Shown here: positions 24,948 to 47,309 of the stretch, piece after piece
How positions within the stretch are numbered: position 1 is the first letter of the stretch
How the letters are laid out: every line of letters begins with the position of its first letter
From: an uncultured bacterium
Lineage (GTDB): Bacteria; Nitrospirota; Thermodesulfovibrionia; Thermodesulfovibrionales; Thermodesulfovibrionaceae
Direction of reading: 5' to 3'
NCBI GenBank assembly: GCA_937924475.1
Contig: CALDSV010000024.1
Location: forward strand, 1 to 64,000
Length of the DNA stretch: 64,000 bases
The notes under the pieces: generated by a model
Seen by the model: only the letters and a program-made list of their open reading frames with translations
What the model was told of the DNA's origin: nothing
Database searches by the model: none
Position numbers and translations under genes: made by a program

Positions 24948-25045
24948 GGGAGTGTATGGGGTTCTGGTGTCCCCCTTGGACTTCAAATCCAATGTTGCCT
25001 GTGAGAAGCAGGCATGGTGGGTTCGATTCCCACACGCTCCCGCCA
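24948..25045 (+). tRNA. selC: tRNA-Sec (anticodon TCA)
   Basis: 98 bases with an encoded CCA. The acceptor stem has eight pairs (GGGAGTGT with ACGCTCCC), the T arm is GTGGG/CCCAC around TTCGATT, and the long variable arm pairs TGCCTG with CAGGCA. The anticodon TCA is at 24983-24985 in the loop CTTCAAA. These are the specific features of bacterial selenocysteine tRNA. A short frame starting at 24946 runs through it and is not real. Confidence 0.97.
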
Positions 25046-42041: not shown

Positions 42042-42299
42042 TTATTTCCCTTTTATCCTGATAATTTTATTTCTTGATGTTAGCCCCTTTATTATCTCCA
42101 TCTTTGATTTTGGCTCATTAAGAAATTCCGACAATATCTCTAATAATTCCCTATTAGCTAATCCATCATGAGGTTGGGATTTAACTCTAATTTTGATTAT
42201 ATCTTCAGCTATTCCTTCAATGCCTGCTTTCTTCGATCCTGTTTTAACGCTTACTTTTAAAAGATATCCGTCTTTATCTTTTATTAAGGGTATTTCCAT
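42042..42299 (-). CDS. YggU/DUF167 family protein
   Basis: 85 residues with the KVSVKTGSKKAGIEG opening and the HDGLANRELLEILSEFL helix that define DUF167. Function is unknown across bacteria. It starts inside the last 26 bases of the PAP2 gene. Confidence 0.88.
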   Translation of the reverse strand: MEIPLIKDKDGYLLKVSVKTGSKKAGIEGIAEDIIKIRVKSQPHDGLANRELLEILSEFLNEPKSKMEIIKGLTSRNKIIRIKGK

Positions 42300-43158
42300 T
42301 TTTCATTAACCAAAAATTATAGTATAAATTACCTATTAATAAAGTTACAACCGTTAAAATTAATCCACCCAAAACATCAACAAAATAGTGGTATCTGCAA
42401 TAAACAGTGGAAATTATAAGTAATAAGACAGGTAAAAGTATTAACCAAAAAATTTTTCTATTGTATCTATAAAACATTAACATTATGAGAACAGATATTC
42501 CTACATGTCCACTGGGGAAAGCATCTCTCTTTAAACCTTCTAATGAATTTAAAAGACTGTTAATTTTGTCTGCTAAGAATAAGCCTTTTAGTTCCTGTTG
42601 AAAAACTAAGGCAAGACTGAAGCGGGGACCTAAAGCGGGAAAAATAAGATAGCCAATGTAGGATATATAAAAACAAAGAATAACAAAAAATAGAGCTTTT
42701 TGGAATTCCTCCTGAGAGCCTTTTTTAATGAGATAAAAACCTAATAGGAAAGGTAAAAAATAGTAGAAGCAATAAGAAATTTGCATTATTTCTGTAATTA
42801 GAGGATTGTAATATTTTTCTAAATAAAGATAGGGATAGAAACCCAAGATTTTATAATCTAATGTGAGAAACAAAAAATCCATGTCTTTTTTTATGTAAGG
42901 AATTATGTATCCAATGGTATCAAAAGCAATAAGTACTGAAAAACAAGGAAAACCTATATTTTTTAAAAAATTTATAACCTTGTTGTTATTGAGCCTATAT
43001 AGAAAAATTTGAAATAAAGCCAAAGATAAATAAATCGTAATAAGATGGAAAGCCATTGAGATTTTTGAATAAAAAATTAGCACTAATAAACCAAGAATGA
43101 GAAAAAAAACAATGTTTAATTGAGCTGCTGGAGGCAATTTTAGAAATTCTCTCTTCAT
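42274..43158 (-). CDS. PAP2-superfamily membrane phosphatase
   Basis: 294 residues with about six or more membrane helices. The C-terminal half carries the acid-phosphatase motifs FPSGH and CRYHYFVDV, with catalytic His residues in both. The layout resembles the PAP2_3 (inositolphosphotransferase-like) group. Likely substrates are lipid phosphates or polyprenyl pyrophosphates; specificity cannot be read. It overlaps the NYN gene by four bases. Confidence 0.82.
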   Translation of the reverse strand: MKREFLKLPPAAQLNIVFFLILGLLVLIFYSKISMAFHLITIYLSLALFQIFLYRLNNNKVINFLKNIGFPCFSVLIAFDTIGYIIPYIKKDMDFLFLTLDYKILGFYPYLYLEKYYNPLITEIMQISYCFYYFLPFLLGFYLIKKGSQEEFQKALFFVILCFYISYIGYLIFPALGPRFSLALVFQQELKGLFLADKINSLLNSLEGLKRDAFPSGHVGISVLIMLMFYRYNRKIFWLILLPVLLLIISTVYCRYHYFVDVLGGLILTVVTLLIGNLYYNFWLMKNGNTLNKR

Positions 43159-43604
43159 GTAAGCTTTTCAATTGTTCTTATTATGGCTTTTTCTTTTTTT
43201 GAAAGATTTAGACCCTTTGGTTTTTCAATAAATATTTTCTCTCCCATAAGAATTTCAAAAAAAATAGAAGAATCTAAAGGAACGCATTTTTCTCTCCAGG
43301 CATTTTTTTCTATTTCTCTGTCCGAAGATATAACAATCCAACAAGCTCTCTCATTTTTAATAATTCTTTTTATAACATCATCAGCCTTTTCGTTAGCACC
43401 AGAGTATATTATTCTTATTCCACCTTTAATCTCGCAGGTTTCTTTACCTGGTCCATCCTTATAACCATCGAATACTAAGGTTATTGCATGTTCTTTATTT
43501 TTAACATAATTTATAAGACGTTCAATGAGATTTTCTCTTGCTTTTCTGAGGTCTTTATGATAGATTCCAATTAAATTATAGCCATCAATGATTATTTTGC
43601 TCAT
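43155..43604 (-). CDS. YacP-like NYN-domain nuclease
   Basis: 149 residues from the ATG at 43604, where the family start MSKIIIDGYNLIG lies. Acidic PIN-type residues are in DGYN, VFDGYKD and ISSDREI. NYN proteins are RNases; the Bacillus homologue (Rae1) cleaves mRNA on ribosomes. A longer GTG start at 43652 (AAAGG four bases upstream) adds 16 residues and would overlap the selenoprotein gene by 14 bases; I cannot exclude it. Confidence 0.8.
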   Translation of the reverse strand: MSKIIIDGYNLIGIYHKDLRKARENLIERLINYVKNKEHAITLVFDGYKDGPGKETCEIKGGIRIIYSGANEKADDVIKRIIKNERACWIVISSDREIEKNAWREKCVPLDSSIFFEILMGEKIFIEKPKGLNLSKKEKAIIRTIEKLT

Positions 43605-43638
43605 ATGAATTAATTTTTCCTGATCAATTTTCGTCTCT

Positions 43639-43830
43639 TTATACTCTGTCACAAGACCTTTGGGAGATTAATTCCCAAGTTTCTTCATCAATTTCTTCAA
43701 GGTATTGAGAGACCTTAAATTCTGCTCCGCATTCAGTACAGCAGAGCACTACACGCCTTCAGTAAAAATAGATAATTATATTATTTTTACAAAATTTACA
43801 TTTGAGATTTTTTAAAAGCTTTTTTTTCAA
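43639..43830 (-). CDS. Small selenoprotein with two CxxC motifs (TGA = Sec24)
   Basis: A frame from TTG (43830) to TAA (43639) is interrupted only by TGA at 43759-43761. Read through, it gives 63 residues: CKFC (11-14), Sec24 followed by RR, CCTEC (30-34), a conserved-looking YLEEIDEETWE stretch and C60-DRV at the end. This agrees with the family I know as dual-CXXC-motif small (seleno)protein, where the Sec site is Cys in some members. Both halves keep family features on either side of TGA. AAGG lies eight bases before the TTG; no other start is available after the upstream in-frame stop. Function unknown, probably thiol/selenol redox. It heads the NYN-PAP2 operon. Confidence 0.75.
43723..43748 (-). 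promoter_or_regulatory. SECIS-like hairpin after the in-frame TGA
   Basis: TGCTCTGC (43741-43748) pairs with GCGGAGCA (43723-43730), eight pairs including one G-U, around the ten-base loop TGTACTGAAT. The loop begins 18 bases after the TGA and has a G in its second position, matching the usual bacterial SECIS spacing and loop rule. It lies within coding sequence, as bacterial SECIS elements do. Confidence 0.65.
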
Positions 43831-43880: not shown

Positions 43881-44417
43881 ATGGAAAGATTTTCATTAAT
43901 CAATAAAGGTGAAATACTTCTATGGCATGATATACCTGAATTAATTAAATTAATAAACAAAATAGATAGTCTCTTTAGAGATTTTTCTGATATTTTTGAT
44001 GAATCTAAAAGATTAGCACAACAAATTAAAAGCTACTTATTGGAAATTGATCCTTTTATTGATGCTTATGCAAAAAAAGTTTGTTCTTCATGCACAAATA
44101 TTTGTTGTCTTAATAAAAATAGTAGATACGAATATGATGATATAATTTATATATTAGCTCTTAGGGAAAATTTCCCTATCCCTAAAAAAAATCTCGAAGA
44201 AAAAGAACCTTGTTATCTTCTAAGTGAAAAAGGATGCATAATTCCTCGTTATATAAGACCTTTTAGGTGCAATTGGTATTTGTGTGATAATCTATTAAAA
44301 GAAATGGAATCAGCACCTGCAAGAGTCTTTAGGGAATTTTCAAATACCTTTAATAAAATTCTTCAAACAAGACAGCAGATGCTGAATTCCTTTTTTCAAT
44401 CACTTTGCAACATCTAA
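43881..44417 (+). CDS. Cys-rich protein with YkgJ-like pattern
   Basis: 178 residues. A helical N-terminal half (1-65) is followed by CSSCTNICC and then C-x7-C-x10-C-x4-C (from EPCYLL to WYLC), the arrangement of the YkgJ zinc/iron-chelating family. I do not know its role. It is transcribed divergently from the selenoprotein operon and converges with htrA, overlapping it by 18 bases. Confidence 0.7.
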   Translation: MERFSLINKGEILLWHDIPELIKLINKIDSLFRDFSDIFDESKRLAQQIKSYLLEIDPFIDAYAKKVCSSCTNICCLNKNSRYEYDDIIYILALRENFPIPKKNLEEKEPCYLLSEKGCIIPRYIRPFRCNWYLCDNLLKEMESAPARVFREFSNTFNKILQTRQQMLNSFFQSLCNI

Positions 44418-45870: not shown

Positions 45871-46515
45871 CTATTTTTGAAGCTTTTGCCAATCTTTTAA
45901 AAATTTTTCTATCCCTATGTCTGTTAGAGGATGTTTGATTAATTGCTGTATTACTGAAAAGGGAATTGTGGCGATATCTGCTCCGATTCTCGCTGCTTCA
46001 ACAACATGAATAGGATTGCGTATACTGGCAACAATTACTTCTGTTTCGAAAGCATAATTTTCAAAAATTATCTGAATATCTCTTATAAGATCCATGCCAA
46101 AGTGACTTATATCATCCAGCCTACCAACAAAAGGACTAACATAAGTAGCACCAGCTTTTGCAGCAAGTAGTGCCTGCGAAGGAGAGAAAACTAAAGTTAC
46201 ATTCGTCTTAATTCCTTCCTGAGAGAGCTTCTTAACAGCCTTTAGACCTTTCTCTGTCATGGGAATTTTAACCACTATATTGGGAGCAATTTTACTAAGC
46301 TGAATAGCCTCTTTAATCATCTCTTCATATTTAAGAGATACTGCCTCAGCACTTACAGGACCATCAACTATTTCACATATTTCTTTTAATAAACTCATTG
46401 GCTCCTTGCCTTCCTTTGAAATTAAAGAGGGATTAGTTGTTACCCCGTCAATAACTCCAAGTTCCCAAGCTTTTTTAATCTCTTCAATATTTGCCGTATC
46501 AATGAAAAATTTCAT
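45871..46515 (-). CDS. tal: Transaldolase, small TalC/Fsa type
   Basis: 214 residues, short transaldolase subfamily. The N-terminal [14 protein letters not shown] and GVTTNPSL motifs and Schiff-base Lys83 (VVKIPMT) are present. It acts in the non-oxidative pentose phosphate pathway; fructose-6-P aldolase activity is an alternative for this subfamily. The start touches the preceding gene by one base. Confidence 0.94.
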
Positions 46516-47309
46516 TATTCATCCTCCTGTAAAACTTTTATTACAAAATTTTCTCCTTCTCTCTCTATAATTAAACCAAAAAAAGGTGCTATTTCAAGCA
46601 AACTTCTTCCTAAAATTAGAGGCAAAACATCATCGGTAATAGATAACTTTTCTTTAAGCCAATCTCTTAGGTATAAATCATATAAGATCATTTCAGCAAT
46701 TTTATCAGTATTCTGACTTTTATACTTTTTTAACTCCTCTATTAGATCCTGAAATCTAAAGAGAGAGCAATTTTCCTCTTGTTTTTTTATTGTTTCCTTT
46801 ATAAAATCTATTTCCCCAAATAAATCAGATCTTGTTAGTCTTAACCTTTCAATCCCTGTTAAAGGAATATTTTGCGACCAACATTCATAAATCCTGCATA
46901 CATAAGGCCTTCTTTCATATATAGTACATCCTTCCTCTGGATCATAAAAAAAGCAGATAGAGGTACCAAATATAGGCTTTATTTTTATCAATTCCATGGA
47001 GGTGTAATAAATCTCTCCATCTATAGAAGAACGCATTGACTCTCCTTCTCTTATAGTGTAGATATCTCTTTCTGAGATAATTCCTTCAATGAGAAGTGGC
47101 ATATCCTCTTTAAGAATTATTGGAGTATCTCTTCTGCAACATTCTCCACAGCGGTCACAGTCAGTTTTTGTGGAAAACTTCATTTTTTTTGATTTTCCAT
47201 CTGGATCATAGCCAGTTATATAATGAGTAGGTTTTTTTTCTTTTTTTTCAGGTCTATACACAGTACCATCGGGTAAAAATATTTCAAATTTAGAATCTTC
47301 TTCTGCCAT
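46515..47309 (-). CDS. YkgJ-family Cys-cluster protein
   Basis: 264 residues. The family pattern is clear: [12 protein letters not shown] near residue 51 and [12 protein letters not shown]...[11 protein letters not shown] later. The Cys set should bind Zn or Fe (inference). It has extra N- and C-terminal regions and lies between a GlcF-like Fe-S protein and transaldolase, all with one- or two-base junctions. Confidence 0.85.

Follow-up and report, generated by a model that had tools for sequence, protein, structure and literature searches.

Small selenoproteins with selenocysteine (Sec) between two CxxC pairs are already represented in NCBIfam by family NF041197 (CxxC_Se_CxxC, 'dual CXXC motif small (seleno)protein'), which has a curated cut-off of 40 bits. 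In PMC13188914 the family is entered twice, as OS_HP3 (motif RxU) and as hypothetical protein DW (motif GxU); the portion of that article available to us gives no function for either, and OS_HP3 is also named in the accessible text of PMC12013277 and PMC9312934. The legend of Fig. 2 in PMC13188914 describes the consensus bacterial SECIS (bSECIS) element as an upper stem of 4–16 bp and a loop 16–37 nt after the UGA, with a G in the first two loop positions, an MFE of −7.5 or lower and an apical loop of 3–9 nt.

Here, we compare with these descriptions a locus on contig CALDSV010000024.1 of assembly GCA_937924475.1, from an uncultured bacterium of the phylum Nitrospirota. The window, that is the whole stretch of DNA analysed, comprises 64,000 nucleotides. 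The features discussed below are the following.

43639–43830, minus strand: predicted selenoprotein gene of family NF041197, 63 codons, with a TTG start at 43830 and a TAA stop at 43641–43639
43759–43761, minus strand: in-frame TGA, probably read as selenocysteine (residue 24); among 149 aligned loci, 143 have TGA here and 6 a Cys codon
43723–43748, minus strand: SECIS-like hairpin with an 8-bp stem and a 10-nt loop beginning UGU, the loop lying 18 nt past the TGA (from folding and comparison)
43155–43652, minus strand: downstream NYN_YacP (Rae1-like) gene, PF05991 at 3.4e-20; a likelier start, judged by eye, is the ATG near 43604
42274–43158, minus strand: PAP2-superfamily protein, next in the same direction, PF14378 at 2.7e-22
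43881–44417, plus strand: divergent protein, rich in Cys, that contains the motifs CxxCxxxxCC and RPxxC (assigned by motif match alone, Pfam giving no family at cut-off)
24948–25045, plus strand: tRNA-Sec gene (selC), found by ARAGORN; Rfam RF01852 at 72.6 bits

The interrupted reading frame and its family

Read from 43830 to 43639 on the minus strand, the frame translates as LKKKLLKNLKCKFCKNNIIIYFYURRVVLCCTECGAEFKVSQYLEEIDEETWELISQRSCDRV. A preliminary description of this DNA had proposed a 63-codon frame broken only by the TGA at 43759–43761, with a CxxC before it and a CCxxC after it, and had interpreted it as a selenoprotein gene with a SECIS-like hairpin. Our re-derivation of the coordinates and the frame agrees: a single TGA (43761–43759) interrupts the frame, no other stop precedes the TAA, and U24 lies between a CxxC at residues 11–14 and a CCxxC at residues 30–34, which contains the second CxxC (residues 31–34). 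The TTG start is credible because ATG, GTG or TTG is found at the equivalent site, ten codons before the first conserved Cys, in all 11 members of the genus. An ordinary listing of open reading frames returns only a 36-aa piece of this gene.

With Cys replacing Sec, the protein scores 53.2 bits against NF041197 and covers the profile from position 1 to 53 of 53; translated through the stop, it scores 44.6 bits, still above 40. Since the curated cut-off is passed and the family is named in reviews, the gene is a further instance of an already catalogued selenoprotein family, and its kind is known. The word 'overlooked' in the preliminary description was thus misplaced, the family being present both in NCBIfam and in the accessible parts of selenoprotein reviews.

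Family NF041197 is common in the phylum, with matches in 152 of 395 genomes (E ≤ 0.001; 139 genomes above the cut-off) and none in 14 control genomes. A named collection yielded 39 loci, most of them labelled Nitrospirae or relatives; all 38 that were scored carry TGA at the Sec position, one partial match (L144) having been dropped. More broadly, family position 14 could be read at 149 of the 152 loci, three weak matches (G259, G006 and G016) having no listed coordinates and standing outside all 149-locus counts; it is TGA in 143 and Cys in 6, as the preliminary description had predicted for homologues at residue 24. The alignment of the first 69 members examined is gap-free across 53 residues; position 14 is U in 63 of them and C in 6, the cysteines at positions 1, 4, 21 and 24 are invariant, and most members end in RxC[DN]R. 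The two CxxC pairs flank the Sec/Cys position throughout this alignment, as residues 11–14 and 31–34 do around U24. Invariance of the cysteines is claimed from the 69-member set alone, as a pattern requiring the four Cys was used to retrieve 83 of the 88 loci added to the first 61; 4 of the 69 were also placed by a similar Cys-requiring pattern. Of the five loci that escaped this pattern and were located by coordinates instead, three have both CxxC pairs; in G093 and G233 a CX4C replaces the first.

In genome G291, with L195 (G291:C44) and G291:C7, a second match starts just after the Sec position, covering 15–52 of 53, and is perhaps a gene fragment.

Two observations that would have spoken against a selenoprotein, homologues ending at the TGA and a lack of conservation downstream of it, were not made: the homologues continue past the TGA and are conserved to near the last codon. 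The UGA thus aligns with a Sec codon or Cys and is followed by conserved sequence. These comparisons make it very likely that the interrupted frame is a genuine gene encoding a tiny selenoprotein, and we hold with high confidence that the locus encodes a 63-residue member of NF041197, an assessment of identity and not of mechanism. The interpretation first drawn from the raw sequence was in this respect borne out. The selenoprotein family, little described so far, proves to be common in the phylum, being present in 152 of 395 genomes, and its usual codon at the Sec position is TGA (143 of 149 loci).

A conserved hairpin with a 10-nt loop

The hairpin following the TGA pairs 43748–43741 with 43730–43723 (8 bp) around a 10-nt loop at 43740–43731 (UGUACUGAAU). 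Ten bases separate the TGA from the stem and 18 separate it from the loop, which has a G at position 2; this geometry is that given in the preliminary description. Folded as a single sequence, the region is unremarkable, with a z score of −1.57 and 11 of 200 dinucleotide shuffles folding at least equally well. Comparison within the genus is more informative. Across 11 genomes, codons 19–26, which lie within the hairpin, form the 8-codon window with the highest synonymous conservation (0.926 vs a window median of 0.595), a level reached in 9 of 20,000 permutations of codon order. Codons 19–22 and 24–26 show no synonymous change, and codon 23, in the loop, varies. By this comparison, the hairpin is conserved beyond coding need.

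Hairpin stability was controlled by shuffling codon usage while keeping the protein sequence. The mean z score was −2.66 in 10 genus members (p < 0.05 in 9), −1.39 in 45 other Sec forms (p < 0.05 in 14, the other 31 being individually non-significant) and −0.38 in 6 Cys forms (none with p < 0.05), a contrast between Sec and Cys forms that depends on the stretch folded because in three related Cys forms a strong hairpin (z −2.9, −2.5 and −1.7) arises closer to the Cys codon, just behind it.

In the three genes in question, L066, L068 and L069, the Cys codon is closely followed by a hairpin of 10 bp with a loop of 10 nt; it is perhaps a SECIS relic, perhaps due to chance.

In its stem (8 bp), position (18 nt), G at loop position 2 and energy (−12.0 kcal/mol), the hairpin agrees with the bSECIS consensus, and its 10-nt loop lies outside the 3–9 nt of the apical-loop rule. 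The best simple hairpin has a 10-nt loop in all 11 genus members when loops of up to 11 nt are allowed, and with loops of 3–9 nt none of the 11 reaches −5 kcal/mol, though 37% of shuffles do. Loops of up to 11 nt bring 11 of 11 members to −5 kcal/mol (54% of codon-shuffled sequences) and 10 of 11 to −7.5 (27%); among the Cys forms, 1 of 6 has such a hairpin at either threshold. Outside the genus, the published rule finds a simple hairpin of −5 kcal/mol or lower in 117 of 132 Sec forms (26% of shuffles) and one of −7.5 or lower in 80 of 132 (10% of shuffles). The SelD genes of the same genus have as their best simple hairpin an ordinary one with a 3-nt G-rich loop in 11 of 12 cases, one locus not having been found. 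Since its loop is longer than the bSECIS rule allows and the SelD loops of the genus are ordinary, the hairpin of the selenoprotein gene is a variant form. A strict rule-based SECIS search could miss a hairpin with such a loop.

Selenocysteine machinery

The tRNA-Sec gene, described earlier as 19 kb away in the window, lies at a measured distance of 18.6 kb. The same genome codes for SelA (626 bits) and SelD (376.5 bits), both above their cut-offs; the SelD gene has one in-frame TGA, in the sequence AAGUAAK, which we take to be the active-site loop. This SelD (L009 1501–2421, minus strand) is probably a selenoprotein too, and an in-frame TGA is present in all 12 SelD matches found in 16 genomes of the genus, the 4 genomes without a match being 56–72% complete.

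SelB proper was not found in the draft assembly, where the matches look, by length and score, like other translation GTPases. A lack of selA and selB had been named at the outset as a reason to doubt the selenoprotein; selA is present, as is selD, and selB is absent from the draft and present in relatives. Among 31 genomes searched, 28 have SelB above cut-off, including all 25 others that are at least 90% complete; besides the window's genome, the exceptions are drafts 56% and 72% complete, of which the former gives a partial match to SelB at 207 bits. Genome G072 is 92.7% identical to the window over 12 kb, yet only scattered stretches of the window's assembly match its 12-kb selB region: the longer of them (148–450 bases) are 69–78% identical and the rest are below 115 bases. 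This points to an assembly gap as the simplest reading of the missing selB, because so close a relative has a selB region of about 12 kb that appears to be absent from the draft.

Across the phylum, SelA (E ≤ 1e-60) occurs in 141 of 152 carriers of the family vs 33 of 243 non-carriers, and in 135 of 143 Sec-form genomes vs 3 of 6 Cys-form genomes (Fisher p 0.005, kinship ignored). The 8 of 143 Sec-form genomes without a SelA match at this threshold count against the selenoprotein reading, as do the absence of selB from the draft, the loop length beyond the bSECIS rule together with the ease with which shuffles reach −5 kcal/mol, the 31 individually non-significant Sec forms and the strong hairpins of three Cys forms.

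Predicted structure

An AlphaFold model was computed from 39 sequences with Sec entered as Cys (Sec is model residue 16); it has a pLDDT of 83 and a pTM of 0.58. In model numbering, strands span residues 9–14, 19–23 and 29–31 and helices 32–35 and 41–48. The turn that connects strands one and two carries Sec, which the first CxxC precedes by ten residues and the second follows after seven. The fold comparison gave weak matches (best Foldseek E 0.14, best Z 3.9), led by small zinc-binding chains and including ZifS, RNA polymerase small subunits and chains of translation complexes. We take the RPB9/RPC10-type chains and ZifS to be zinc ribbons. No Pfam family matched the selenoprotein at cut-off, and the 28 matches from a PDB sequence search, of which 15 are named as zinc-finger proteins, came via short CxxCGxxF stretches. 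The model and its matches weakly suggest a zinc ribbon with Sec in a beta-hairpin turn.

Genomic surroundings and possible function

Locally, the Sec gene is followed by NYN_YacP, PAP2 and then further genes, and the NYN_YacP gene is probably co-transcribed with it. The suggestion that the gene heads an NYN/PAP2 operon fits the locus in the window; among the 149 loci, though, an NYN component lies directly downstream in only 13. As a general feature the operon link was rejected, 6 of 11 genus members having an opposite-strand neighbour instead, within a run of genes of flagellar type, as judged by eye.

Neighbours were called by a simple longest-ORF script and the CxxCxxCC motif by a regular expression, so that the counts given here are approximate. 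In 108 of 149 loci the gene that comes next shares the strand, in 38 it lies opposite, and in 3 it falls off the stretch. Among components that start within 650 bases, the commonest are CxxCxxCC-type (19), L13 (16), NYN_YacP (13), S20 (10), IMP cyclohydrolase-like (7) and cytochrome c (5). A Pfam scan of upstream neighbours (52 of 59) revealed no dominant family, the commonest being Lactamase_B (4 of 52).

The Cys-rich neighbours recur; the NYN/PAP2 operon is local. By motif search, 37 of 149 loci have a CxxCxxCC-type ORF no more than 2.6 kb away; in 29 loci, under five of 19 family labels, such ORFs lie directly downstream or divergently within about 700 bases (15 downstream, 17 divergent upstream, 3 both). 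For the directly downstream position, clustering gives 19 loci vs 15 by motif. One downstream protein passes PF03692 (26.1 bits, cut-off 23) and another falls short (20.6). The divergent protein at 43881–44417, characterized at first as Cys-rich and metal-binding-like, is indeed Cys-rich; neither it nor a near-identical relative matches the Pfam CxxCxxCC family at cut-off. A second Cys-rich protein near the locus (46515–47309, minus strand) matches PF03692 CxxCxxCC above cut-off, at 44.6 bits. Such recurrence makes a metal or redox partnership the first candidate for the function.

We tentatively favour a mechanism in which an exposed selenol, as the working group of the protein, acts on a partner by redox or metal exchange, although the chance that this is right is only about one in three. 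By comparison with the family, the UGA at residue 24 stands where other members have selenocysteine codons or cysteine, and SelB bound to the hairpin would bring Sec-tRNA to it. The two CxxC pairs (residues 11–14 and 31–34) would form the metal site of the predicted zinc ribbon, and the selenol would make and break Se–S or Se–metal bonds with a partner protein, the near-C-terminal Cys60 serving as an optional resolving thiol. Cys60 is kept in 117 of 138 Sec forms; because it is replaced in the other 21, it is not essential to the family, and since a resolving Cys60 is not required, a partner protein is favoured.

A somewhat less probable alternative is that Sec is itself a metal ligand, in a small metallochaperone or metal sensor working with the CxxCxxCC-type neighbours. 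The adjacency of such ORFs in 29 loci, in two arrangements and under five labels, accords with this, as does their enrichment close to the gene: in the 61 longer loci the motif occurs in 12 of 185 near ORFs and in 3 of 366 that are far (p 2.6e-4, inflated by shared descent). However, 112 of 149 loci lack these neighbours, loci in synteny do not count independently, and Sec sits ten and seven residues away from the CxxC pairs, in the strand-joining turn of the model.

Still less likely is a zinc ribbon bound to the ribosome or to RNA polymerase, with a redox-sensitive selenol in its hairpin turn acting on translation or transcription. The selenoprotein gene lies directly before an L13-type component in 16 of 149 loci and an S20-type component in 10 (L073, L066 and similar), besides the 13 with NYN_YacP, and many of the weak fold matches are RNA polymerase and translation-complex chains. 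Rae1/YacP is described, in the accessible part of PMC6613710, as an endoribonuclease acting at the ribosomal A site. Against this, each of the L13 and S20 contexts occurs under only one or two family labels and the NYN context under three, ribosomal genes are common as neighbours, and a zinc-ribbon fold shows no function, all the more as every fold match is weak.

That the TGA is a true stop, a sequencing error or the mark of a decayed gene, so that short peptides or nothing would be made, is hardly credible. The 36-aa piece in the ordinary listing and the selB missing from the draft fit it, but three findings do not: 143 of 149 loci have TGA and conserved sequence beyond it, the hairpin is where synonymous conservation is highest, and the SelD gene of this genome also contains an in-frame TGA. 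A true stop, pseudogene or chance frame was rejected on family distribution, alignment, TGA counts and synonymous conservation.

In a broader picture, which we consider improbable, the genus would carry a distinct bacterial SECIS type (10-nt loop beginning UGU), left out by the 3–9 nt rule, on a protein that would be a zinc ribbon tipped with a selenol and acting together with CxxCxxCC-type proteins or at the ribosome. We found no description of such a use of selenium in the accessible portions of the literature. The recurring neighbours and the predicted zinc ribbon provide a first concrete hypothesis for an uncharacterised family.

Comparison with known systems

Compared with the bacterial SECIS element, the hairpin is the same in its position behind the UGA, stem length, 18-nt loop distance, G in the first two loop positions and stability, and differs in its loop, of 10 nt instead of the 3–9 nt of the rule. 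With zinc-ribbon proteins (RPB9/RPC10-type, ZifS) the model shares two Cys-pair knuckles and a beta-hairpin, and the weak fold matches point the same way; unlike them, this predicted selenoprotein places Sec in the hairpin turn, has a helical C-terminal part, which in most members closes with RxC[DN]R, and matches no Pfam family at cut-off. The closest described system is NF041197 itself, to which the protein conforms in its match above the curated cut-off and its one Sec between two CxxC. Within that family the genus stands apart by its 10-nt hairpin loop, by a basic N-terminal extension of about ten residues (judged by eye) and by Tyr-Sec, whereas most members have Gly-Sec (Gly 47, Tyr 11, n = 69).
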